DNA from: Cupriavidus sp. D39
GTDB taxonomy: Bacteria; Pseudomonadota; Gammaproteobacteria; Burkholderiales; Burkholderiaceae
Assembly (NCBI RefSeq): GCF_026627925.1
Contig: NZ_JAPNLE010000009.1
Location: 186,001 to 250,000, forward strand
Direction: 5' to 3'
DNA: 64,000 bases
The position numbers and the translations under genes are program-made. The notes under the pieces were generated by a model, which was not told the DNA's origin, did not search any database, and worked only from the letters and a program-made list of their open reading frames with translations. This document shows, one piece after another, positions 10,595-21,994 of the stretch. Each line of letters opens with the position of its first letter. Within the stretch, counting starts at the first letter, position 1.

Positions 10595-11987
10595 TCAGGC
10601 CAAGCGGCTGGCCTCGATGTGCGGCAGCACCCGCGCCAGCGTGATGCCGCGCGCGGCCATGAACAGCAGCAGCGCCGCCCATAGGCCATCGTTGCCGAAC
10701 GGGCCGGCCAGCGCGAGCGCCGCCGCCATGAACGCCGCGAACGACAAGGCCATCGAATGCATCAGTTCGCGCGTGCGGGTGGCGCCGATAAACACGCCAT
10801 CCAGCAGGAAGCCCCACACGGAGACCAGCGGCAGCGCAACGGCCCACGGCAGGTAGCGCACGGCCGCGTCGTGGACGGCCCGCTGGTCGGTCAGGCAGGC
10901 GATGATCCATTCGCCTGCGCTGGCATACACCAGGGAAAAGCACAGTGCGCCCACCGCCGCCCAGATCATCGTGACCCGGACCGCGCGACGGAATGCATGC
11001 CGGTCCCGGGTGCCGATGGCGGCGCCCACCAGCGCCTCGGCCGCATGCGCGAAGCCATCGAGCGCGTAGGCCATGAAGGTCTGGAAGTTGAGCAGCAGCG
11101 CGTTGGCCGCCAGGATCACGTCACCCTGCTTGGCGCCCGCATGGGCGAACCAGCCGAAGCTGGCCACCAGGCACAGCGTGCGGATGAAGATATCGCGGTG
11201 GAGCGCGACCAGCCGCTTGAGTTCGTGCGCGTCGGCAACCACCGCCCAGCGCAGGGAGGCAGCCCGTGGGGGCGCAGCCGCCAAAGCAGGGCGGCGCCCA
11301 GCACGAAGCCGCACGCATCGGCGGTGGCGGTAGCGGCGCCGATCCCCGCGATGCCCCAGTCGAACACGTAGACATAGAGCAGCACCGCGCCAATGTTCAC
11401 CGCGTTGATGAACAACTGGGTGAGCAGGCCAAGCCGCACGTGCTGGCAGCCCAGCAGGTAGCCCAGCACCACGTAGTTGCACAAGGCAAAGGCGCCGCCC
11501 AGATCCGCGCATGGCTGTAGACGCGCGCGTGGTGCTGGAGCGTGTCGCTGCCGCCGATCAGGCCCAGCGCGCCGTGGATCAGCGGCATCTGCACGGCCAG
11601 CACGCCGAGCCCAATGACGGTGGCCAGCAGCAGGGCGCGTACCAGCGTGGCGCGCAACGACGCACCGTCCCGGGCGCCGTACGCTTGCGCGACGAGGCCG
11701 GTGGTACCCATGCGCAGGAAGCCGAAGCCCCAGAACACAAAGCTGAAGAACAGGCCGCCGGCGGCCACACCGCCCAGGTAGGCCGGATCCGGCAGGTGGC
11801 CGGCCACGGCGGTATCGACCGCGCCAAGGATCGGCTGGGTCAGGTTGGCGAGGATGATCGGGAATGCCAGCGCCAGCACGCGGCGATGCCAGCCGGAAGT
11901 GGGGAGGGCCGGCGATGTGCTGGAAGCGCTGCTGCTGGCAGGTGAAGCGGGTGGAGCGGGTGGAGCGGGACTATCGGCGTCTGGCAC
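10595..11987 (-). CDS. MATE-family efflux protein (DinF-like), two single-base losses
   Basis: Multidrug/toxin extrusion transporter, about 464 residues after bridging two breaks, with about 12 membrane segments. The N-terminal half begins after a low-complexity Ala/Pro/Ser tail with LALAFPIILANLTQPILGAVDTAVAG, the MATE signature. Breaks are near 11491 (HARIWAAP then ALCNYVVLGYLLG) and in the G run 11268-11272 (LWRLRP then RAASLRWAVVAD). Both fit a lost G/C. The C-terminal half has GFLLDGVFIGATRTRELMHSM, close to DinF-type members. It is unlikely to be co-regulated with the convergent polB. Substrate unknown. Confidence 0.85.
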
Positions 11988-12063: not shown

Positions 12064-13137
12064 TCAGAAGCGATGGCGCACGCCCACGCCGTACGTGTCG
12101 GCATGCGACTGCGCGGTCAGCTTGTCGTAGAAGTACGCCGCGTACACGTCCGTGCGCTTGGACAGGTTGTAGTCGTAGGCCAGCGCGGCGGTGTTGCGGC
12201 GGAAATCCCCGACGTTGTTGCTAGTCTTGTCATAGGCGTACGAGACCAGCACATTGCCCGCGCCAACCGGCACCGATGCACCCACCTGCCCGTTCCTGTG
12301 CTTGATGTCGCCGGCGGCGCTGCTGATATCCGACTTGATGTACTGGGCCTGGGCGAACAGCTTGACCACCTTGAAGTCATAGCTGATGCCGCCCTGGACG
12401 GCGTTCTGCTTGTTGAAGCCGGCGAGCGCCGCGGGTGACGTCACGTCACCCGGAGTGGCATTGAACCTGGCCTGCTGGAAGGCCACGGTGGCGCCGAAGG
12501 GGCCATTGAAGTAGGTGAGGTTGCCGCCCCATTTGTTCTGGCCGTTGCTGCCGGGCTGCTCGCCGAAGGCGTAGATCAGGTTCACGGTCAGCCCGCCGAG
12601 CGTTGGCGTGGAGTAGACCACGGAGTTGCTCCAGCCCGAGTCGCCGATGATGCCCGGGTCGTAGACCGCGCCGCTCGTTGCGGTCTTGTACGTGTGGTAG
12701 ATGGACGGCCCGAAGTTGTAGGAGTCCACCAGCGGGTTGAACAGGATCGTGGAGAGGAAGTAGGGCGTGGTGTTGCGCCCCAGCTTGACGGTGCCGTAAG
12801 CGTTGCTCTGCAGGCCGACGAAGGCGTTGCGCGTGAACATGCCATCGGTATCGGAGCGCCCCGATTTGCCCACGTCGGCGCGCAGGAACCCGTTGAGGTC
12901 GAAGATTGCCTTCAGCCCGTTGCCCAGGTCCTCGGTGCCCTTGATGCCCCAGTACGACGTCTGCATGCCGCCGGCGCCCACCACGTAGGCGCGGTCGCCG
13001 CCCGCCGCGCGCGTGCTGCCGACAAACGAGTCGACCTGCCCGTAGAGCGTGACGCTGGATTGCGCCAGCGCGGCGCCGCTGGCGCAGGCTGCGCCCAGGA
13101 ACGCCAGCGCAAGCGTGGCTTTGGTTGTTTGCTGCAT
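12064..13137 (-). CDS. Outer-membrane porin, beta-proteobacterial type
   Basis: Trimeric general-diffusion porin of the Gram-negative porin family, 357 residues. ATG at 13137 follows GAGGAGATCACG. The signal peptide is about residues 1-25, ending ASGAALAQ. The mature start SSVTLYGQVDSFVG, the GIKGTEDLGNGLKAIFDLNGF strand pair and the C-terminal GVGVRHRF with terminal Phe are diagnostic. It is the last gene of the MFS-pyrKD-amidohydrolase-pyrCE run, 31 bp after pyrE. Its role there may be outer-membrane entry of the anionic substrate, which is inferred from position only. Confidence 0.92.
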   Translation of the reverse strand: MQQTTKATLALAFLGAACASGAALAQSSVTLYGQVDSFVGSTRAAGGDRAYVVGAGGMQTSYWGIKGTEDLGNGLKAIFDLNGFLRADVGKSGRSDTDGMFTRNAFVGLQSNAYGTVKLGRNTTPYFLSTILFNPLVDSYNFGPSIYHTYKTATSGAVYDPGIIGDSGWSNSVVYSTPTLGGLTVNLIYAFGEQPGSNGQNKWGGNLTYFNGPFGATVAFQQARFNATPGDVTSPAALAGFNKQNAVQGGISYDFKVVKLFAQAQYIKSDISSAAGDIKHRNGQVGASVPVGAGNVLVSYAYDKTSNNVGDFRRNTAALAYDYNLSKRTDVYAAYFYDKLTAQSHADTYGVGVRHRF

Positions 13138-13168
13138 CGTGATCTCCTCTCAGTCGTTGTGGTTTTTG

Positions 13169-13859
13169 TTAGCGTTGCGTCCCGCTGGCCCCGATGCCGC
13201 CGTGGTCTCGCGACCATCTGGCCGGGTCTTCCAGGAAGCGCTGCAGTTCGTCCAGGCTGCGGCTGTCCACGCCGCCGGAGGCACGCGCAGCTTGCAGGAT
13301 GTCCTGCCAGTTCGCGAGGGCATGCACCTTGGCCTGCCAGGGGCGAGCACGCTTTCGGTGGGGAACGTGCCGTAGTCGAACACCACGAAGATGTCCGTCA
13401 CCACCGCGCCGGCCGCAGCCAGCGCCTCGCAGAAGATCCGCTTGGAGCGCGCAGCGGCCATCATGTCGTCCACCAGCAGGACGCGGTCGCCGGCGTTGAC
13501 GACGCCTTCGATCTGCGCGGCCGGGCCCAGCCCTTGGCCTCCTTGCGCACATAGAGCAGCGGGAGCGCCAGGGCGTCGGCCATCCACGCGCCAAACGCGA
13601 TGCCGCTCGATTCGGCGCCTACCACGGCATCGATGCCGTCGATCCGGTCCTGGTCTTGTAGCAGCGCCAGGCCGCGCTGGATCAGCGCCTTGCGCAGCAG
13701 TGCAAACGAGATCAGCCGGCGGCAGTCGATATAGACCGGGCTGGCCCAGCCGGAGGGCAGCCGGAACGGCTCGTCCGTGCGGAACTTCACGCAGCCGGCA
13801 TCCAGCAGGGCCTGGCCCACCAACGACGACAGGTCCAGTTGAGTGCGTAGTTGAGACAT
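13169..13859 (-). CDS. pyrE: Orotate phosphoribosyltransferase PyrE, two single-base losses
   Basis: Converts orotate and PRPP to OMP in the cytoplasm. About 230 residues after two breaks are bridged, at 13531-13533 (YVRKEAKG then LGPAAQIEG) and in the G run 13340-13343 (SVLAP then WQAKVHALANW). Visible motifs: FRLPSGWASPVYIDCRRLI, the AVVGAESSGIAFGAW loop and the PRPP signature VLLVDDMMAA near residue 125. The start ATG at 13859 has CTGGAG upstream, and a (GTGCTT)7 array sits just before that. Placement in a catabolic-looking operon suggests a salvage role, with a housekeeping pyrE expected elsewhere. Confidence 0.88.
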
Positions 13860-13870
13860 ACAGTGCTCCA

Positions 13871-13912
13871 GTGCTTGTGCTTGTGCTTGTGCTTGTGCTT
13901 GTGCTTGTGCTT
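13871..13912 (+). repeat. Hexanucleotide array (GTGCTT)7 upstream of pyrE
   Basis: Seven uninterrupted copies of GTGCTT (AAGCAC on the coding strand) occupy 42 bp in the pyrC-pyrE spacer. The array ends 11 bases before the pyrE start codon, just upstream of its ribosome site. Confidence 0.95.
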
Positions 13913-13958
13913 CGCCACGACGCGTATCAGCAGCGCGGCGAGGGGGCCATGCGCCGGC

Positions 13959-14998
13959 TCAAGCCAGCTTCCAGCCAAGTTCTTCGCCCGCAAGGAAGGG
14001 GTGGATTGCCTTGCCGTCCGGCAGCGGGATCGATTCGGCCACGCGGTGGCGTTCCCGCCGCAGCGTGACCGTGCCCTCGTTCAGCGGCAGGCCATAGAAG
14101 CGGCTGCCGTTCTCGCTGGCGAAGGCAGCAAACCGGTCCAGCGCGCCTTCTTCGTCAAAGACCGTGAGATAGGCCTCGAGCGCGTTTGGCGCGCTGAAGA
14201 TGCCGGCGCAGCCGCAGGCCGCTTCCTTGGCCGTGCGATCGTGCGGCGCGGAGTCCGTGCCCAGGAAAAACGCGGGCGAGCCGGAGGTGGCGGCGCGGCG
14301 CAATGCCAGCCGGTGCCGCTCGCGCTTGAGCACGGGCAGGCAGTAGAAATGCGGCCGGATGCCGCCGGTGAACATGGCATTGCGGTTGAACATCAGATGC
14401 TGCGGCGTGATCGTGGCGGCAAGACGGCCGCTGGTGTCCCGGCCGACAAAGTCCGCCGCCTGCTCGGTGGTGATGTGCTCCAGCACCACCTTGAGCCGTG
14501 GGAAGCGTGCCAGCAGCGGCTTGAGCGTCTGCTCGATGAACGTGGCTTCGCGATCGAAGACGTCCACGGCCGGATCGGTGCTCTCGCCGTGGATCAGCAG
14601 CGGCATGCCGATTTCCTGCATGGCTTCGAGCACGGCGGCCACCTTGTCGGGCGCGGTCACGCCGTACTCGGAATGCGTGGTGGCGCCGGCCGGGTAGAGC
14701 TTCACGGCCGTGAACACCCCTCGCTGAACCCGCGCCGCACTTCGTCGGGCGGCGTTGCATCGCAGAGGTAGCAGGCCATCAGCGGGACAAAGCGCGCACC
14801 TGGCGGCAGCGCCGCGAGTATCCGCTCCCGGTAGGCGTGCGCCGCGTCGACGGTGGTGACGGGCGGCTTGAGATTCGGCATGACGATGGCGCGCGCAAAC
14901 TGCCGCGCCGTGTGGGGCAGGACGGCGCGCAGCGTATCGCCGTCGCGCAGGTGCAGGTGCCAGTCGTCCGGCCGGGGCAGGGTGAGGCTTTGCGTCAT
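13959..14998 (-). CDS. pyrC: Dihydroorotase PyrC (type II), one single-base loss
   Basis: Zinc amidohydrolase interconverting N-carbamoyl-L-aspartate and L-dihydroorotate, about 346 residues, the length of E. coli-type PyrC. ATG at 14998 follows AGGAGACACC. Metal-binding DWHLHLRDG is near residue 12. The carbamylated-lysine segment [16 protein letters not shown] follows the break in the C run 14717-14720 (GFSEG then VFTAVKLYP). MPLLIHGES and [10 protein letters not shown] supply further His ligands, and [10 protein letters not shown] supplies the catalytic Asp. It lies 24 bp after the amidohydrolase gene. In this operon it may run from dihydroorotate to carbamoyl-aspartate. Confidence 0.92.
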
Positions 14999-15022
14999 GG
15001 TGGTGTCTCCTGTCGGCGCGGC

Positions 15023-16276
15023 TCAGAGGCTGGCGATGGTGTCGTCCAGCACCTGCACGCCAAGCAGGAAATCGTCGATGTCCATCGCTTCATCCGGGTT
15101 GTGCGAGCCGTGCTCGTTGCGCACGAACAGCATGCCGGTGGGGATGCCGGCGTTGGCAAACAGCGATGCATCGTGGCCGGCGCCGCTCGGTACCTGCTCA
15201 ACCGGGAGGTCCCGTTGCCGGCATGCCTGCGCCAGCAGCTCGCAGAGCCTGCCGTCCATGGTGGCCGGGGCCGACTCGATGCGACGGTCGAACTCGAACC
15301 GCACGCCGCGGTCGCGGGAGATCGCCTTGCATTCCGTGCGCAGCAGCTGATAGAAGCCTTCCAGCGTCTCCACGCTCTTGCTGCGCGCCTCGAAGCTGAA
15401 GTTCACCATGCCGGGGATGCGCGAGATCGAGTGTTCCTCCGGGCTGGTGCTGACCACGCCGGTGGTGACGACCAGATCGATGCCGCGCTCCAGCAGCACG
15501 CGCCAGTGCTCATCCAGCCGCGTGATCAGGTCGGCCACGGCAAACATGGCGTCCTTGCGCAGCCACCTTGGCACCGCGCCGGAGTGGCCGGCCTCGCCGA
15601 TGCAGCGGATCCGGTTGTGGCGCACATTGCCGCGGATGCCGGGCACCACCGCGACCGGCAAGCCGCGCGCGACCATCACCGGGCCTTGCTCTATATGCAA
15701 CTCCAGGTAAGCGTGCACCTGCGCCTTGTCGAGCAGCAGCGCCTGCGCGCGGATCGCCTCGACATCGGCGCCGGCTGCCGCCATGCAGGCCGCCAGCGAT
15801 TCGCCGGTATGCCGATGCGGCAGTGCCAGGTCGTCAGCCGAGAGCTTGCCCATCAGGGCGCCCGAGCCCATGTACGCCTTGCCGAACCAGGCGCTTTCCT
15901 CGCCCCGGAAGCCGACCACCTGCAGCGGCACGCGCGAGCGCTGGCCGCTGCGCTGTTGCCGGAGCTGGCACAGCAGGCCGGCGACGATCCCCGCCAGGCC
16001 GTCGAAGTTGCCGCCTTGCGGGACGGAGTCCAGGTGGGAGCCCACCCACGTGGCCGGCGCGCCAGCGTCGGCTTGCGGCAGGCGGAAGACGAAGTTGGCG
16101 GCGCGGTCGGCCTGCGCTTCAAGGCCGTTGCCCAGCGCGAAGTCCCGCAGGTAGCCGGCCGCGGCCGTCTCGCCGGCGCCGTAGCTGGCGCGGGTCACGC
16201 CAACGCCATCTGACGACAGTTCGCGTATGTCCTTGAAGAGCTGCTCGGCGACCGGCTTGAGTTCCAGAATTTCCAT
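15023..16276 (-). CDS. M20-family N-carbamoyl-amino-acid/allantoate amidohydrolase, candidate ureidosuccinase
   Basis: Metal-dependent amidohydrolase of the HyuC/AllC group, 417 residues from ATG 16276. Features: TWVGSHLDSVPQGGNFDGLAG (metal His and Asp), VVGFRGEESAWFG (the metal-site Glu pair), YLELHIEQGPV (His-x-Glu), the GEAGHSGAVP dimerisation-loop region, and a C-terminal SGAGHDASLFA with HNPDE. The family removes a carbamoyl group, giving amino acid, CO2 and NH3. Its place between pyrD and pyrC suggests N-carbamoyl-L-aspartate as substrate, which is inference. Allantoate or other carbamoyl amino acids remain possible, but no allantoinase or hydantoinase gene is nearby. Confidence 0.88.
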   Translation of the reverse strand: MEILELKPVAEQLFKDIRELSSDGVGVTRASYGAGETAAAGYLRDFALGNGLEAQADRAANFVFRLPQADAGAPATWVGSHLDSVPQGGNFDGLAGIVAGLLCQLRQQRSGQRSRVPLQVVGFRGEESAWFGKAYMGSGALMGKLSADDLALPHRHTGESLAACMAAAGADVEAIRAQALLLDKAQVHAYLELHIEQGPVMVARGLPVAVVPGIRGNVRHNRIRCIGEAGHSGAVPRWLRKDAMFAVADLITRLDEHWRVLLERGIDLVVTTGVVSTSPEEHSISRIPGMVNFSFEARSKSVETLEGFYQLLRTECKAISRDRGVRFEFDRRIESAPATMDGRLCELLAQACRQRDLPVEQVPSGAGHDASLFANAGIPTGMLFVRNEHGSHNPDEAMDIDDFLLGVQVLDDTIASL

Positions 16277-16347
16277 GACACGTTTGTTGATCGTTGCAGT
16301 GACGCGCCGGCGGCAGGCGCCGGCGCGAGCGGCTTTGCGTGTGGCGC

Positions 16348-17298
16348 TCAGCCGGATTGCTGCGCAAAGCGCAGCCAGCGGTCGCTTAAGTGCGGGTCGA
16401 GCCGGACCTGGCCCACCAGCTCGCGCAGCGCTTCGGTGCCGGTCTCCTGGCAATAGTCCTGCAGCCCGTCGATGATCTTCTGCATGACGCCGGGATCGCG
16501 GAAGGACGCCGTGCCAACCTGGACCGCGGCGGCGCCGGCGAGCATGAACTCGACGGCATCCTCGGCGTTCTGGATCCCGCCGCAGCCGATGATGGGAATG
16601 CGCACGGCGCGATAGCACTGGTGCACCAGCCGCAGGGCAATCGGCTTGATGGCCGGGCCGGACAGGCCGCCCATGACATTGCCCAGCTTGGGCTTGCGGG
16701 TGCGCACATCGATGGCCATGCCCAGCACGGTGTTGCCCATGACGATGGCGTCCGCGCCCGCGTCTTCCGCCGCGCGCGCCACCGCCGCAATGTTGCTGGC
16801 GTTGGGCGTGAGCTTGACCCAGAAGGGGTGGCGCGTACGCCGGCGGATGGCGCTGACCGCCTTGTAGGTGGTCTCGGGCAGCATGGCAAAGGCCATGCCG
16901 TCGGCTTCCAGGTTGGGGCAGGAGATATTGGCCTCGATCGCGGCAACCTCGGGCAGGGACATCTGCTCGCACGCCAGGGCGAACTCCTGCGCGGTATCGG
17001 CGGAGATCGAGACCACCACGGGCGTGTCGTAGCGGGTGTACGGCGGCAGCACGCATTCGCGGTAGTAGTCGAGCCCCTTGCTCGGGATGCCGATGGAATT
17101 GAGCATGCCGCTATAGGTCTCGGCTACCCGCGGCGTGGGGTTGCCGGCCCGGGACCTGGGGGAGACGCTCTTGATCACCAGCGCGCCAAGCCGGTTGAGG
17201 TCCAGCGCTTCGCGATACTCGATGGCGAAGCAGCCGGAGGCGGGCATGACTGGGTTGCGCAGCGTCAAGTCGCCAACCCGAACGGATAGATCAGCCAA
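16348..17298 (-). CDS. pyrD: Dihydroorotate dehydrogenase, class 1B catalytic subunit
   Basis: FMN enzyme interconverting dihydroorotate and orotate, 316 residues. It probably starts at TTG 17298, inside the tail of pyrK, with GAGGTGGAG upstream. The active-site base is Cys127 in the motif NISCPN, which marks a class 1 cytosolic enzyme. Class 2 enzymes have Ser there and an N-terminal membrane extension, both absent. GNTVLGMAID, NVMGGLSGPAIKPIAL, IIGCGGIQNAEDAVEFMLAGA and VQVGTA give the FMN barrel. The adjacent PyrK makes it the NAD-linked 1B type. Proteobacteria normally use class 2 for biosynthesis, so this looks like a second, specialised enzyme. Confidence 0.92.
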   Translation of the reverse strand: MADLSVRVGDLTLRNPVMPASGCFAIEYREALDLNRLGALVIKSVSPRSRAGNPTPRVAETYSGMLNSIGIPSKGLDYYRECVLPPYTRYDTPVVVSISADTAQEFALACEQMSLPEVAAIEANISCPNLEADGMAFAMLPETTYKAVSAIRRRTRHPFWVKLTPNASNIAAVARAAEDAGADAIVMGNTVLGMAIDVRTRKPKLGNVMGGLSGPAIKPIALRLVHQCYRAVRIPIIGCGGIQNAEDAVEFMLAGAAAVQVGTASFRDPGVMQKIIDGLQDYCQETGTEALRELVGQVRLDPHLSDRWLRFAQQSG

Positions 17299-18139
17299 AC
17301 TCCACCTCCCCGACCACTTCGCGAATGGAAAACACGGGGCCTTCCCGGCAGACCCGCAGGAATTGCTTGTCGCCGTCGCAATCGAACAGCCGCACGCAAG
17401 ACAGGCACACGCCCATGCCGCAGGCCATGCGCTGCTCCATGGCGACTTCGCCCACCACCTCGGGATAATCGGCCAGCACGCGCTGCAGCAGCATCAGCAG
17501 GCGGTGCGAGCCACAGGTGTAGACCGCATCCGGCCGCTGCTGCCCGATCAGGCTGCGCATCAGCACTTCCACGGCGTCCACGGATGAGGAGCCATCGGCA
17601 TCGAACACGCTATGCACTTGCGCGTTGGCCCCGCGCAGGAACTCCTGCTCCATCAGGTCCTCGCGGGTGCGGGCCGACATCACCGCGGTGATGGCCACGC
17701 CGGCATCGGCTGCCTGCTGGATCAGCGGTGCCATGGTGGCCAGGCCCACGCCGCGCGCCACCACCAGGATCCGCTTGAAATCCGGCCTGAAGGTAAAGGT
17801 GTTGCCCAGCGGGCCCACGATTTCCATGTGGCCATCGACAGGCAGGCTGGCCATGGCCCGCGTGCCGACGCCGGTCACGTTGTAGAGGAACTCGATGCGG
17901 CCATCTTCCGGCCCCGCGCCATAGACGCTCATGGGGCGCAGCAGGAACGGCTGTTCCGTTTCGGTGGCGGGGCAGCGGAGCTGGTAGAACTGCCCGGGCT
18001 TCGTGATGCGGGCAATCGGCGCATCCGCTTCCAGGCGGATGTGCCTGTAGCGCCGGTTGACCCACGAATGTTCGACTACGCGGCAGCGATGGGACGCCAC
18101 CGTGGCGGCGCCGTCCGGGCCGCACAAGGTTGCAGACAT
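17291..18139 (-). CDS. pyrK: Dihydroorotate dehydrogenase electron-transfer subunit PyrK
   Basis: FAD/[2Fe-2S] subunit linking PyrD to NAD(H), 282 residues, with AGGAGTCATC before ATG 18139. The ferredoxin-reductase fold is visible: the FAD motif RPMSVYG near residue 78, GPLGNTF, and a nucleotide-binding ILVVARGVGLATMAPLI segment. The C-terminal cluster ligands are Cys240, Cys245, Cys248 and Cys264, in the CGMGVCLSC arrangement. Its end overlaps the pyrD start by 8 bp, so subunits are probably made in step. The pair could run in the orotate-reducing direction with NADH, as known for Clostridium oroticum. Confidence 0.92.
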   Translation of the reverse strand: MSATLCGPDGAATVASHRCRVVEHSWVNRRYRHIRLEADAPIARITKPGQFYQLRCPATETEQPFLLRPMSVYGAGPEDGRIEFLYNVTGVGTRAMASLPVDGHMEIVGPLGNTFTFRPDFKRILVVARGVGLATMAPLIQQAADAGVAITAVMSARTREDLMEQEFLRGANAQVHSVFDADGSSSVDAVEVLMRSLIGQQRPDAVYTCGSHRLLMLLQRVLADYPEVVGEVAMEQRMACGMGVCLSCVRLFDCDGDKQFLRVCREGPVFSIREVVGEVEFG

Positions 18140-18190
18140 GATGACTCCTGATAAATGCGAGGCGAGGCGGGGCGATGCAATGCGGGGCGC

Positions 18191-19450
18191 TTATTCCAGC
18201 TCGACGCCCTTGAGCTCGGGGATGAGGAAGATCGTGGCGATCATGTCCAGCACGTAGATGCTGGCCAGCAGGGCAATGGCCACCTGGAAGGAGTAGCTGG
18301 CGGCCAGCGCGCCGACCACGATGGGCCCGAAGCCGCCCACGCCACGCCCGATGTTGAACAGGACGTTCTGCGCGGTAGCGCGCGCCGCCGTGGGATAGGC
18401 TTCCGAGATCAGCGCGCCGTAGCCGCCGATCATGCCGTTGACGAACATGCCCATGACCGCGCCGGCCCAGAGCATGGTGACGGGGTCCGACATCCGCGAA
18501 TACGCAATCACCATCGCCACCGCGCCGGCCTGGAAGATCAGGAAGCTGGGCTTGCGGCCGATGCGGTCGGCCAACTGGCCGAAGACATAGACGCCGATCA
18601 TCATCCCGACGATGGTGACCGAGGTCCACATGGCGGACTTGGTCAGTGAGAAACCCAGGGCTTTGGACAGATAGGTGGGCAGCCAGATCATGATGCCGTA
18701 GTAGCCAAAGTTCTGGACCGAGCACAGGATCACGATGCCGAGGCTGGTCCGCGTGGTGCGGCCATCGGCAACCAGCAGCTTGAACGCATTCGCTTTCTTC
18801 TTGTCCTGGGTTTCGGCATGGCGCACGAACACTTCCGGCTCATGCAGTTTGTTGCGCACGAACCAGGCCACCAGCGCCGGCACCACGCCCAGCAGGAACA
18901 TGCCGCGCCAGCCGATATGCGGCAGCAGCAGCGGCGTCAGCAAAGACGCCAGCAGCACGCCGCTTTGCCAGCCGAGCGCCACGTACGAAGACACCCGCGC
19001 GCGTTTGCTGGCGGGCCAGGCCTCCGCGGCCAGCGCCATGCCGATGCCGAACTCGCCGCCCAGGCCGATGCCGGCGATGGTGCGGTAGGCCAGCAAATCC
19101 CAGAACCCCTGCGCGAACGCGCACAGGCCGGTGAAGACCGCAAACAGCACGATGGTCCAGGTGAGCACCCGCACCCGCCCGTAACGGTCGCTCAACGCGC
19201 CGAAGACAATGCCGCCGGCAACTGCCCCGATCAGCGTCCACGTCACCAGCGCGCCGGACTGGCCGGTGCTCAGGGCGAGAGCCACGCTGATGGCCGGCAG
19301 CATGAAACCGAGGATGAGCAGGTCGAACCCGTCCATCGCGTAACCGATGGCTGAGCCGGCCAGCGCCTTCCAGGCGTAGGGCGAGGTCCTGTCGGGTTGT
19401 AGGGGTGGGGCGTCGGATGTGGGGACCGATACGCGGGCGTTGGCTTCCAT
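18191..19450 (-). CDS. MFS transporter, aromatic acid:H+ symporter-like
   Basis: Twelve-segment major facilitator, 419 residues. I chose ATG at 19450 because GGAAGG precedes it and the remaining N-terminal tail is short. GYAMDGFDLLILGFMLPAI in segment 1 and GGIVFGALSDRYGRVR between segments 2 and 3 are typical of the AAHS/sugar-porter branch. GQLADRIGRKPS repeats the motif in the second half. It is the first gene of the operon with pyrK, pyrD, the amidohydrolase, pyrC and pyrE, and probably brings in the pathway substrate. Orotate is my inference, since orotate resembles the aromatic acids carried by this family. Confidence 0.88.
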   Translation of the reverse strand: MEANARVSVPTSDAPPLQPDRTSPYAWKALAGSAIGYAMDGFDLLILGFMLPAISVALALSTGQSGALVTWTLIGAVAGGIVFGALSDRYGRVRVLTWTIVLFAVFTGLCAFAQGFWDLLAYRTIAGIGLGGEFGIGMALAAEAWPASKRARVSSYVALGWQSGVLLASLLTPLLLPHIGWRGMFLLGVVPALVAWFVRNKLHEPEVFVRHAETQDKKKANAFKLLVADGRTTRTSLGIVILCSVQNFGYYGIMIWLPTYLSKALGFSLTKSAMWTSVTIVGMMIGVYVFGQLADRIGRKPSFLIFQAGAVAMVIAYSRMSDPVTMLWAGAVMGMFVNGMIGGYGALISEAYPTAARATAQNVLFNIGRGVGGFGPIVVGALAASYSFQVAIALLASIYVLDMIATIFLIPELKGVELE

Positions 19451-19894
19451 GGGGCGTTCCTTCCTCTGTGCCTTTGTTGAGCATGTGCGCTGGTCGGGCG
19501 GGCTTGGTCGTCGACGGGTAGCGCCTTTTGATTCACTTGCTATGCGGATTACCGGTGCTGTCAGCTGGCCCGGGTTACGGGACGGCATCGGCAACCTGAC
19601 TGTTGTCTCAATTTATAGACTGGATGGGCAAAAAATAGCCGGATGGGTCTGGCTGCGAGTAATAACCTGCAAATCGCCTTTGCCATGCGGGTATCGTCTT
19701 TTTTTAGACTACGCGTGGGAAATCGCGTTTGCAAGGGATTTTGAGGGGCTAGGGTAACCCCCGATCGAAGCCGGAAGGTGCCTGTCGGCCGTCCGTAGCG
19801 GACCTGACGACACAATTGTCTAATTATTGAGAAAACCGTGGGCATTCCTGCCGCGGCCATGCCGCGGCGCAGGCATTTGATAAACTCCGCCCCC
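19451..19894. promoter_or_regulatory. Divergent control region between MFS operon and TetR gene, with repeated operator-like sites
   Basis: AT-rich 444-bp spacer without a gene. It holds related near-palindromes built on GTCT/AGAC half-sites: GTCTCAATTTATAGAC at 19605-19620, its diverged reverse-strand form at 19818-19833 (GTCTAATTATTGAGAA), and a tighter GTCTTTTTTTAGAC at 19696-19709. The first lies on the MFS side and the second 60 bp before the TetR start. This fits one regulator controlling both directions. Confidence 0.5.
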
Positions 19895-20593
19895 ATGAAG
19901 AAGCCAGCAACAACACGCAGCAACGCCCCGGTAAAGCGTGGCCAGTCCCAAGGCGGAAGCATCAAGCCGGAAGGGCAATGGCACCACGGCGACCTGCGCG
20001 CTTCGCTGATCGCATGGGGCACCCACCTGCTCGATACCGAGGGAATCGCCGGCATGAGCATGCGCACGGCCGCCAAGCTGGCTGGCGTCTCGGCGGGCGC
20101 GCCGGCGTATCACTTCGGGGACCGGAACGGGCTGCTGGCCGCCATCGCGGCCCAGGCGTTTCGCGACCTGGTGGCGTATCGCCGCCAGCGCGTGGAAAAG
20201 ACCGATCCCGCCGACGCCGCTGGCCGGCTGCGGGCAGTCATGCTCGGCTATGTGGAGTTTGCGCAGGCCCATCCGGCGCGGTTCCACCTGATGTTCGGGC
20301 CGGAGATCGCGGACCGGGAAGCGTATCCCGAGCTGATGGAGGCGGGCGCAGCATCGTTCCAGGTGCTGCGCAGCGCCATCGGGCCCGTACTGCAAGGCCC
20401 AAGCGTCGGCGCGCTCAGCGAGGAGCAGCTGGCGTTCTCCGTGTGGGCCGCCACCCACGGCCTGGCCACGCTGACCATCGACCGCCGCCGCGTGCCGATC
20501 GCCTCCACGCAGCAGCCCACGGCCGAGCAGCTGGCCGACATCGTCGTGCGGTTCTGCCTGGCGGCGTTGCGTGGATCGACAACGGCGCGTTAG
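19895..20593 (+). CDS. TetR-family transcriptional regulator
   Basis: About 232 residues from ATG 19895. An in-frame upstream ATG at 19838 would add a basic tail and overlap the operator region. The DNA-binding helix-turn-helix is GIAGMSMRTAAKLAGVSAGAPAYHFGDRNGLL, about residues 45-80. The C-terminal half resembles the WHG domain (AHPARFHLMFGPEI, FSVWAATHGLATLTID). It is divergent from the MFS/pyr operon, with matching operator-like sites between them, so it is the likely regulator of that operon. The ligand may be a pathway intermediate. Confidence 0.88.
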   Translation: MKKPATTRSNAPVKRGQSQGGSIKPEGQWHHGDLRASLIAWGTHLLDTEGIAGMSMRTAAKLAGVSAGAPAYHFGDRNGLLAAIAAQAFRDLVAYRRQRVEKTDPADAAGRLRAVMLGYVEFAQAHPARFHLMFGPEIADREAYPELMEAGAASFQVLRSAIGPVLQGPSVGALSEEQLAFSVWAATHGLATLTIDRRRVPIASTQQPTAEQLADIVVRFCLAALRGSTTAR

Positions 20594-20818: not shown

Positions 20819-21994
20819 GAGGGTGAGGACAAATTCAGGCATTGGTCAATCGGCGTACGAGCAAACGTGCCTGAGATAGCCAGACCCAGGAGGTTGCGCT
20901 GGCGATGCTGCGATCGTGATGCATGATCAGGCGGCGCGAGCGCTCGTTCCAGGCATGGGTGCGCTCCACCACCCAGCGCATGGGCAAGGGGGGAACGTTT
21001 GATCCAGCGGCCACAGGGACTGCTGTGCATCGTGCCAATGCCCAGCCTTGGGCGGGCGACGCACGATGTGCACGTTCAGGCCGTGAGCTTGCTCGAGGGC
21101 GGCGGCACAGCGCCCGGCATACGCCGAGTCGGCAAACAGCCGCTGCAACGTGCCGGCCTTGGCGCAAGCTTGAGCCACCACCGTTGGCGCCGCGTCGCGA
21201 TCTTGCACGCTAGCGCTGGTAATGCATACCGCCAACAACAGCCCCAGTGTGTCCACCACGATATGTCGCTTGCGCCCTTTGACCTTCTTGCCCGCGTCGT
21301 ATCCTTGGCCTGCCCCTGCGGCGAGATCCGGGTCGACTGTGAATCGATGATGGCGGTTGTGGGCTGGGCCTCGCGCTGGATGCGCCTGCGCCATTGCTGG
21401 CGCAGGCGCTCGTGCAACTGCTCGAACTTGCCTTGCGCGCTCCAACGCAGGAAGGCCTTTTGCACGGCCGGCCAGGGTGGAAAGGACTCGCGCGGCAGCA
21501 TGCGCCAGGAGCAGCCCGTGCGCAGCACGTAGCAGCACGCATCGACCATGCGGCGCCTCTCGTACACCGCAGGTCGTCCCCGATGTCCCTCTGGCTGTTC
21601 GAACAGGTCGGCCGCCAGCGTCCATTCGGCATCGGTCAGGCAACTGGTGTACTTGCCAGGATCGGCCGGCTCCAGGCGATGAGAATCGTTGTAGCCGTAA
21701 TGCGCGGGCTCACTGGGCTTTGCATAGAGTACAGCGCTGGGTTGCGCAACTCGCTTCAATCCAGCGCGGCGCAGAGCCGCCGCCAGCGTGACTGTGCTGA
21801 CCTTGGGGCCGCCTTGCTCGGCAAGGCCTTGGGCCAACTCCCTCATCGTCGCGTTCGGATGGCTTCTCACCAGTTCCCGCAACTGCGCGTGATGCTCCTC
21901 GTCTATGGCCAAGGGCCTTCCCATCTTCCCCATGACTGCATCTCCATGTTCAGTTTAGGAAGAATAGGTCTTTCTTTGTTTTGTCTCCACCCTC
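20819..21994 (-). mobile_element. IS5-like insertion sequence, about 1176 bp
   Basis: Ends are GAGGGTGAGGACAAA at 20819 and, on the other strand, GAGGGTGGAGACAAA ending at 21994. The uninterrupted target is readable from the other arm and from copy B. Comparison shows a 3-bp AAA duplication at the insertion point inside the arm hairpin. One transposase gene on the minus strand fills the element. Confidence 0.85.
20835..21933 (-). CDS. IS5-family transposase with extra N-terminal HTH, two single-base losses
   Basis: DDE transposase of about 366 residues. From residue 95 it matches IS5/DUF4096-type proteins: LTDAEWTLAADLF, GRPAVYERRRMVDACCYVLRTGCSWRMLP, IIDSQS (first Asp), KVKGRKRHIVVDTLG, LFADSAYAG (second Asp) and MRWVVERTHAWN (Glu). 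Residues 1-60 (GRPLAIDEEHHAQLRELV, ATMRELAQGLAEQ, LRRAGLKR) resemble the helix-turn-helix of IS630 proteins and are not usual for IS5. Breaks lie at the C run 21313-21316 and the G run 20988-20993. Each fits one missing base, with motifs continuing in order. Confidence 0.85.

Follow-up and report, generated by a model that had tools for sequence, protein, structure and literature searches.

A probable operon for reductive orotate catabolism in Proteobacteria, built from pyrimidine-pathway genes

The window analysed here is a 64,000-nt stretch of a Cupriavidus sp. D39 contig, in which a seven-gene operon combines uptake genes with enzymes of the pyrimidine pathway and is a candidate system for degrading orotate (operon positions are numbered within the window). 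The genes are transcribed from the minus strand in the order MFS transporter, PyrK, PyrD, M20 amidohydrolase, PyrC, PyrE and porin, span 12064-19450 and are separated by short gaps, with PyrK and PyrD overlapping by 8 bases, and a TetR-family regulator gene is divergent from the seven (Table 1). An original prediction for this DNA had described seven closely spaced same-strand genes and a divergent TetR gene, and every one was found on the strand and at the position given there, with family matches that agree. It overlooked frame breaks in the operon pyrC (one change) and pyrE (two changes); the MFS, PyrK, PyrD and M20 frames are open. By their operons, the closest relatives are the genus genomes G003 (PyrD 95%) and G007 (M20 92%) and Cupriavidus basilensis OR16 (L102).

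Table 1 Genes and operator-like sites of the candidate orotate operon, in window coordinates
Feature	Position	Strand	Basis or match
MFS transporter, candidate orotate/H+ symporter	18191..19450	-	MFS_1 above cut-off
PyrK, flavin adenine dinucleotide (FAD) + [2Fe-2S] electron-transfer subunit, NADH-linked by family	17291..18139	-	PF10418 + PF00970
Class 1B PyrD, predicted orotate to dihydroorotate	16348..17298	-	PRK07259
M20 amidohydrolase, candidate N-carbamoyl-L-aspartate amidohydrolase (ureidosuccinase)	15023..16276	-	TIGR01879
PyrC dihydroorotase, two reading frames, break near 14700	13959..14998	-	TIGR00856 (C-terminal piece)
PyrE orotate phosphoribosyltransferase, three reading frames, two breaks	13169..13859	-	Whole homologue in G003 operon
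General porin, likely outer-membrane entry	12064..13137	-	PF13609 (Porin_4) 194 bits
TetR-family regulator, divergent; alternative GTG start at 19838	19895..20593	+	PF13305
Operator-like arm close to MFS start	19599..19620	.	Inverted repeat I1
Operator-like arm close to TetR start	19818..19839	.	Inverted repeat I1

The window PyrD exceeds the cut-offs of PRK07259 (373.5 vs 269 bits) and TIGR01037, and by family cut-off, active-site cysteine and PyrK partner it is a class 1B dihydroorotate dehydrogenase, as had been proposed; the cysteine, Cys127, lies in the motif NISCPN (residues 124-129). This motif was kept in all 70 operon PyrDs and all 16 biosynthetic PyrDs compared, and 24 alignment columns set the operon rows apart from the biosynthetic rows. 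Assignment to the dihydropyrimidine dehydrogenase PreA was rejected (PRK08318, 143.7 bits against a cut-off of 335). PyrK matched PF10418 well (49.6 bits, cut-off 23.9) and PF00970 barely (21.5 vs 21.1), and its Fe-S cysteines (Cys240, 245, 248 and 264) were kept in 70 of 70 rows. PyrK adjoining PyrD is the gene pair of the NAD-linked type of dihydroorotate dehydrogenase, with predicted cofactor use.

The M20 protein passes TIGR01879 (266.1 bits, cut-off 204) and just missed its best subfamily, PRK09290.1-5 (391.6 vs 399); the closest solved chain is 3n5f, an N-carbamoyl-L-amino acid hydrolase. Two narrower identities were rejected, the allantoate deiminase AllC (TIGR03176, 193 bits, cut-off 597.75) and ErtE, the protein lying under the ErtE equivalog cut-off. 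We compared its residues across 72 operon rows, drawn from 71 loci and the window with one locus entered twice, and in six paralogues encoded by the same genome; two of the paralogues, L131 (281 residues) and L134 (366 residues), are incomplete. The metal-ligand and catalytic motif residues His82, Asp93, Glu127, Glu128 and His195 were present in 72 of 72 rows and His393 in 71, with one gap. Three further positions distinguish a subfamily, represented in the window by Arg238, Ser286 and Arg287: at position 238 the operon rows have Arg (69) or Lys (3), against Met or Leu in all six paralogues; at position 286 they have Ser (59), Thr (12) or Ala (1), against Asn in all six; and at position 287 Arg stands in 68 of the 72, where the paralogues have Val or Thr. 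The paralogue Asn at position 286 presumably helps to hold the substrate, as in yeast beta-alanine synthase and bacterial carbamoylases, and the basic residues near this position would suit the second carboxylate of carbamoyl-aspartate. The operon M20 is thus a candidate ureidosuccinase, judged by its carbamoylase family and its own subfamily signature. Among 120 listed of 7,973 matches, its relatives carry database names such as hydantoinase/carbamoylase family amidase, Zn-dependent hydrolase, N-carbamoyl-L-amino-acid hydrolase and allantoate amidohydrolase.

PyrC is of the dimeric type and its C-terminal piece alone passes TIGR00856; across 29 PyrC rows the motif GTDSAPH occurs in 27 and GTDTAPH in one, and one row departs from both. 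Two pieces of the window PyrE, searched separately, fell under the pyrE cut-offs; the G003 operon holds a whole homologue of 230 residues, and among solved structures the operon PyrE of L083 has its best relative in 4ohc, an orotate phosphoribosyltransferase by name. As the catalytic loop varies among 38 PyrE rows, its activity is the least sure of the operon enzymes. The best NCBIfam family of the MFS protein is the aromatic acid/H+ symport family TIGR00895, at 346.9 bits under a cut-off of 418.55.

The original prediction had looked to separate housekeeping pyrC, class 2 pyrD and pyrE elsewhere in the genome as its check, and all three were found. A PF01180 genome search hit two places, the operon PyrD and a gene at C9:5231986 which passes quinone-dependent (class 2) equivalogs (TIGR01036, 416.7 vs 200 bits), a TIGR00336 search found a full pyrE at C9:3862114, and a TIGR00856 search found a second pyrC in two pieces and two frames at C9:4227534-4228549. 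The dihydroorotase gene is therefore present twice, each copy split in frame in the assembly, and the motif spellings of the housekeeping PyrE differ from those of operon PyrEs. The operon is a second pyr set beside the normal pyrimidine genes.

To the survey of gene order, also proposed at the outset, we admitted the loci of the best 80 of 174 matched PyrD relatives, a selection biased towards near relatives, and scanned them by tblastn; the probes for biosynthetic genes came from L093 and pass the CarA, CarB, PyrF and pyrE_Therm cut-offs, the type-I PyrC probe passing the pyrC_multi subfamily only. M20 was present in 60 loci, all Proteobacteria by record title, with PyrDs 57-93% identical to that of the window, and absent from 20 with PyrDs 42-52% identical, 19 of them from other phyla by title and one (L094) from an uncultured bacterium. 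The 60 M20 loci held PyrK (60), an MFS transporter (45), TRAP DctM (4), porin (27), PyrC (19), aspartase (18), PyrE (32), malic enzyme (5), an XRE regulator (48), one of two small companion proteins (43) and TetR (1), and in 55 of them M20 adjoins PyrD in the same orientation and no more than 350 bases away (exceptions L074 and L084-L087). Pandoraea contributes 16 of the 60, all without PyrC, aspartase and PyrE, and its rows are not independent; outside it PyrC occurs in 19, aspartase in 18 and PyrE in 32 of 44 loci. Contig ends shorten 13 of the 60 to under 16 kb, and some absences are possibly false. CarA, CarB and PyrF were found by tblastn in none of the 60, which do not qualify as pyrimidine biosynthesis operons. 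The 20 loci without M20 held PyrK (19), CarA (10), CarB (11), PyrF (11), biosynthetic-type PyrE (11), type-I PyrC (13), operon-type PyrE (2) and malic enzyme (2), and no MFS, aspartase or XRE gene; at least one biosynthetic neighbour stood in 16 of them, and none was in view for L094, L098, L100 and L103. This pattern, with M20 always present, CarA, CarB and PyrF never, and aspartase recurrent, fits degradation and not synthesis.

The PyrD tree agrees with the division. Among its 93 rows (the root is for drawing only, and L039 and L127 are one locus entered twice) a branch with 100/100 support splits 70 M20-linked rows plus three others (L120-L122) from 20 rows, and the window pairs with G003 (100/99). 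Within the genus, an M20 orthologue (E up to 1e-100) occurred in 15 of 60 genomes, the same 15 that hold a PyrD of at least 86% identity (whole in 13, broken into pieces in G005, a fragment in G007); G014, G019 and a second G020 locus carry a 55-56% identical PyrD without M20 alongside. In an order-wide sample PyrD (E up to 1e-95) was found in 12 of 250 genomes, the window's own among them, and M20 was present in two of four such regions examined and absent from the others. On separate contigs, Caballeronia cordobensis carries two loci of the operon type (L034, L036).

Additional enzymes in the relatives extend the likely route. L083 has, between PyrC and PyrE, a gene that exceeds the cut-off of the aspartate ammonia-lyase equivalog TIGR00839 (690.9 vs 681.2 bits). 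In L032 the gene before the porin matches malic enzyme domains above Pfam cut-offs, though at 683.7 it falls far short of the 1178 set for the longer NADP-malic-enzyme subfamily. These two enzymes are the strongest hint of the pathway's direction, and in such relatives the route would run from orotate through dihydroorotate, carbamoyl-aspartate, aspartate, fumarate and malate to pyruvate. At E up to 1e-150 the window's genome yielded no aspartase, its best match reaching only 24%, so that transamination is likely there.

Taken together, we consider it probable that this is a dedicated operon for reductive orotate catabolism in Proteobacteria. The original prediction had PyrDK, PyrC and the amidohydrolase running in reverse to degrade orotate; it was right on content and, given the separate pyr genes, the synteny and the co-occurrence, very probably right on function. 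Besides the frame breaks, the aspartase and malic enzyme of relatives, the co-occurrence within the genus, the M20 signature and the plasmid copies go beyond what it described. From gene content, families, catalytic residues, synteny and co-occurrence we infer the substrates, direction of flux, regulation and activity of the window's copy as follows. Orotate would enter by the porin and then the MFS symporter, and electrons from NADH would pass through PyrK, with its FAD and [2Fe-2S] cluster, to PyrD, which would reduce orotate to dihydroorotate. PyrC would open the ring to give N-carbamoyl-L-aspartate, and M20 would hydrolyse this to L-aspartate, CO2 and NH3. Aspartate may then enter central metabolism, in many relatives by way of an operon aspartase (to fumarate) and sometimes malic enzyme (to pyruvate). 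PyrE may salvage part of the orotate to uridine monophosphate (UMP); this diversion, part of the original claim, has become weaker, as PyrE occurs in 32 of the 60 loci, its loop varies and the window copy is frame-broken.

Several observations weigh against the proposed catabolic role. PyrK falls under the PyrK equivalog cut-offs (best 118.7 vs 219). With the E limit of 1e-150, 37 of 60 genus genomes have an aspartase, the operon-free G010, G023, G025, G026, G039 and G046 among them, and the enzyme is hence not exclusive to the operon, and malic enzyme was also matched in those two loci without M20. PyrC is found in only 19 of the 60 loci, which suggests that the ring is often opened by the product of a gene elsewhere, and any of PyrC, PyrE or aspartase in 39, the 16 Pandoraea loci having none. 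The tree places L120-L122, from genus mates and without M20, among the proteobacterial PyrDs, and compounds other than orotate may therefore also be substrates of this group. The pyrC and pyrE of the window itself are out of frame, the G003 operon lacks pyrC, and G007 (L113:6900-9485) retains only M20, the end of PyrD, a short PyrE-like match and TetR, a natural loss of the operon; the operon thus decays in some lineages.

The last points bear on the best-surviving alternative, which is compatible with orotate catabolism in the relatives: that the strain carries only a decaying remnant of the operon, with pyrC and pyrE real pseudogenes, which we regard as possible though unlikely. Besides the two broken frames and the reduced G007 operon, small (1-2 base) losses relative to G003 amount to five in 742 aligned columns across the pyrE stretch, so real decay of pyrE is possible. 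A neighbouring MATE-type transporter gene (window 10595-11987), whole in G003 and G007, also lies in several frames, with two such losses in 1489 columns. As this gene and the housekeeping pyrC are split too, indels in the assembly are a fair explanation of the breaks, and the MFS, PyrK, PyrD and M20 genes have stayed open, though six losses in 4508 columns were counted in that stretch as well (the gap count is a rough measure). Directly after TetR lies an IS4/5-family transposase frame (DUF4096, window 20927-21933), a place where G003 has no gene called between TetR and the following gene.

We think it improbable that the true substrate is some different ureido compound or pyrimidine (for example a substituted hydantoin, a barbiturate or a pyrimidine carboxylic acid other than orotate), with orotate a mere analogue. 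Solved M20 relatives are named for several ureido compounds, and related PyrKD loci have as neighbours Rieske and intradiol dioxygenase domains (L120), a molybdenum hydroxylase and UbiD (L137, L138) or, near L084 PyrKD, an AtzD/TrzD ring-opening amidohydrolase and a Rieske oxygenase. Against this, NISCPN is identical in operon and biosynthetic PyrDs, the co-occurring PyrC passes the dihydroorotase equivalog, PyrE is also present, and an aspartase fits an aspartate product. Very improbable is a second, NADH-linked biosynthesis set for conditions which disable the quinone-linked class 2 PyrD: although PyrC, PyrDK and PyrE belong to families of biosynthesis, and most loci without M20 have carAB and pyrF next to class 1B PyrD, the M20 operons never contain CarA, CarB or PyrF, their amidohydrolase, present in 60 of 60, would destroy the intermediate, many include transporter, porin or aspartase, and their PyrDs stand apart from the biosynthetic class 1B rows in the tree.

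The regulator gene linked to the proposed orotate operon differs between the window and most relatives. In the window TetR matches the C-terminal domain PF13305 (51 bits, cut-off 26.8) and TetR_N just under its cut-off (22.8 vs 24), and among the loci scanned relatives of it occur only in L102, L112 and L113; this TetR, and the XRE-type regulator of most relatives, would probably respond to orotate or a pathway product. Of the shared operator-like sites described in the original prediction, an inverted pair (I1, 77% complementary) was found, with arms that fall in blocks conserved in G003 and OR16, and its operator role is putative. The second block overlaps the alternative GTG start of TetR, so the downstream ATG is favoured. 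A promoter and terminator scan gave no excess over shuffled sequence (1 found vs 1.0 expected; 4 vs 5.0).

Many of the operons also encode a 108-residue companion protein (L083:4370-4696; P0121-P0164), present in 21 of the 60 loci, in 20 of these with the XRE regulator, and adjoining the operon of a Klebsiella plasmid as well. It has no Pfam or NCBIfam match above cut-off, and its confident, all-helical five-helix model (pLDDT 94.3) found no PDB match at E ≤0.001. In Pandoraea a 111-residue protein occupies a similar place.

Of 72,556 plasmid records, 191 gave matches in a PyrD protein search. Identity was under 60% in 134 of these, and one Cupriavidus and three Variovorax records matched best. 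The gene blocks recur in annotated plasmids: on two from Variovorax they come with XRE, PyrE and the small protein, and on one from Klebsiella (L117) MFS, PyrK, PyrD, a Zn-dependent hydrolase, PyrC, XRE and the small protein, with neither PyrE nor aspartase, lie between copper and lac genes. DNA near-identical to this Klebsiella cassette occurs in 55 of the 72,556 records, all Klebsiella, 53 of which cover at least 80% of it, and typing gave 20 conjugative, 3 mobilizable and 32 non-mobilizable plasmids; a near-identity search of 20,395 E. coli records gave no match. In the PyrD tree, a Leclercia chromosome (L081) has its PyrD at zero distance. Orotate is abundant in milk and present in urine, and among 30 plasmid records listed four name milk and six urine, others naming sputum, blood, faeces or wastewater; this is only a hint.

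Related PyrKD clusters of different composition were also seen. L137 (5092-14702) and L138 (6627-14077) have PyrK, PyrD with the motif NISCPT and PyrC, no M20, and a molybdenum-hydroxylase domain alongside, which is Fer2_2 in L137 and MoCoBD in L138; L137 also holds XRE and UbiD, and L138 a putative UbiD-like reading. Their hosts have a second DHO_dh-family gene, and the cluster substrate is perhaps another heterocycle. Genus mates have a PyrKD pair, about 55% identical to the window PyrD, that lacks M20; in L120 (3554-9917) a Rieske domain and an intradiol dioxygenase of the catechol type lie near this pair. In Roseomonas (L084:2964-10278) PyrE and M20 have the AtzD/TrzD ring-opening amidohydrolase as a neighbour, and PyrK-PyrD have an ornithine-cyclodeaminase-like gene and the Rieske oxygenase; in Polaromonas (L064:2637) relatives of the AtzD/TrzD amidohydrolase and of the ornithine-cyclodeaminase-like gene precede PyrK.

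On balance it seems likely that these operons supply the genes, above all that of the M20 ureidosuccinase, for an old orotate-degradation route, as a partly mobile system across Alpha-, Beta- and Gammaproteobacteria, Klebsiella plasmids included, with its own PyrD clade, usual XRE regulator and 108-residue companion, and that sister PyrKD clusters (Rieske, molybdenum-hydroxylase, UbiD and AtzD/TrzD-type) may degrade other heterocycles in the same way, by reduction and ring opening. If so, genes would be assigned to an old biochemical pathway, and biosynthetic enzymes would have been recruited into one operon for the reverse direction. Proteobacterial copies of class 1B PyrD, PyrC or PyrE may then be catabolic and call for caution, M20 genes named hydantoinase/carbamoylase amidase, N-carbamoyl-L-amino-acid hydrolase or allantoate amidohydrolase may merit a more exact name, and the Klebsiella plasmids would carry a metabolic cassette. 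No such operon was met in literature titles and abstract openings (orotate catabolism, ureidosuccinase, C. oroticum), a coverage which mostly excludes subscription journals and leaves absence unproven.

The route itself has a precedent, known from 1950s enzymology, in Clostridium (Zymobacterium) oroticum. Using an NADH-linked dihydroorotate dehydrogenase and a ureidosuccinase, this organism degrades orotate by way of dihydroorotate and carbamoyl-aspartate, and the products are aspartate, CO2 and NH3. The proposed steps and enzyme types are the same; the likeness is drawn from the pathway description and not from sequence, and the present case differs in lying in Proteobacteria, in one operon with uptake genes and a regulator, in its dimeric-type PyrC, and in the aspartase and malic enzyme added by proteobacterial relatives. 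Reductive uracil/thymine catabolism (PreA/PydA, hydantoinase, beta-ureidopropionase) follows the same logic of reducing, opening and decarbamoylating, whereas the operon has PyrD instead of PreA and PyrC as the predicted ring opener. The M20 protein shares its metal-ligand and catalytic motif residues with allantoate amidohydrolase, L-carbamoylase and ErtE, yet stays under the AllC and ErtE cut-offs and has a residue signature of its own. Similarly, the PyrD-PyrK pair shares family and NISCPN motif with the biosynthetic class 1B pairs of non-proteobacterial loci, which lie on the opposite side of the tree, differ at the 24 separating columns and in many cases have carAB or pyrF nearby. The uncharacterised dehydrogenase clades X1 and X2, as far as described in the relevant part of PMC4016543, have other neighbours. 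Finally, E. coli and Salmonella salvage orotate via DctA and PyrE (PMC13328217), which resembles the present system in taking up external orotate, and many of the operons hold PyrE; there, orotate is turned into UMP, and section 9 of that source describes no degradation, whereas the operon described here would probably break orotate down to aspartate.

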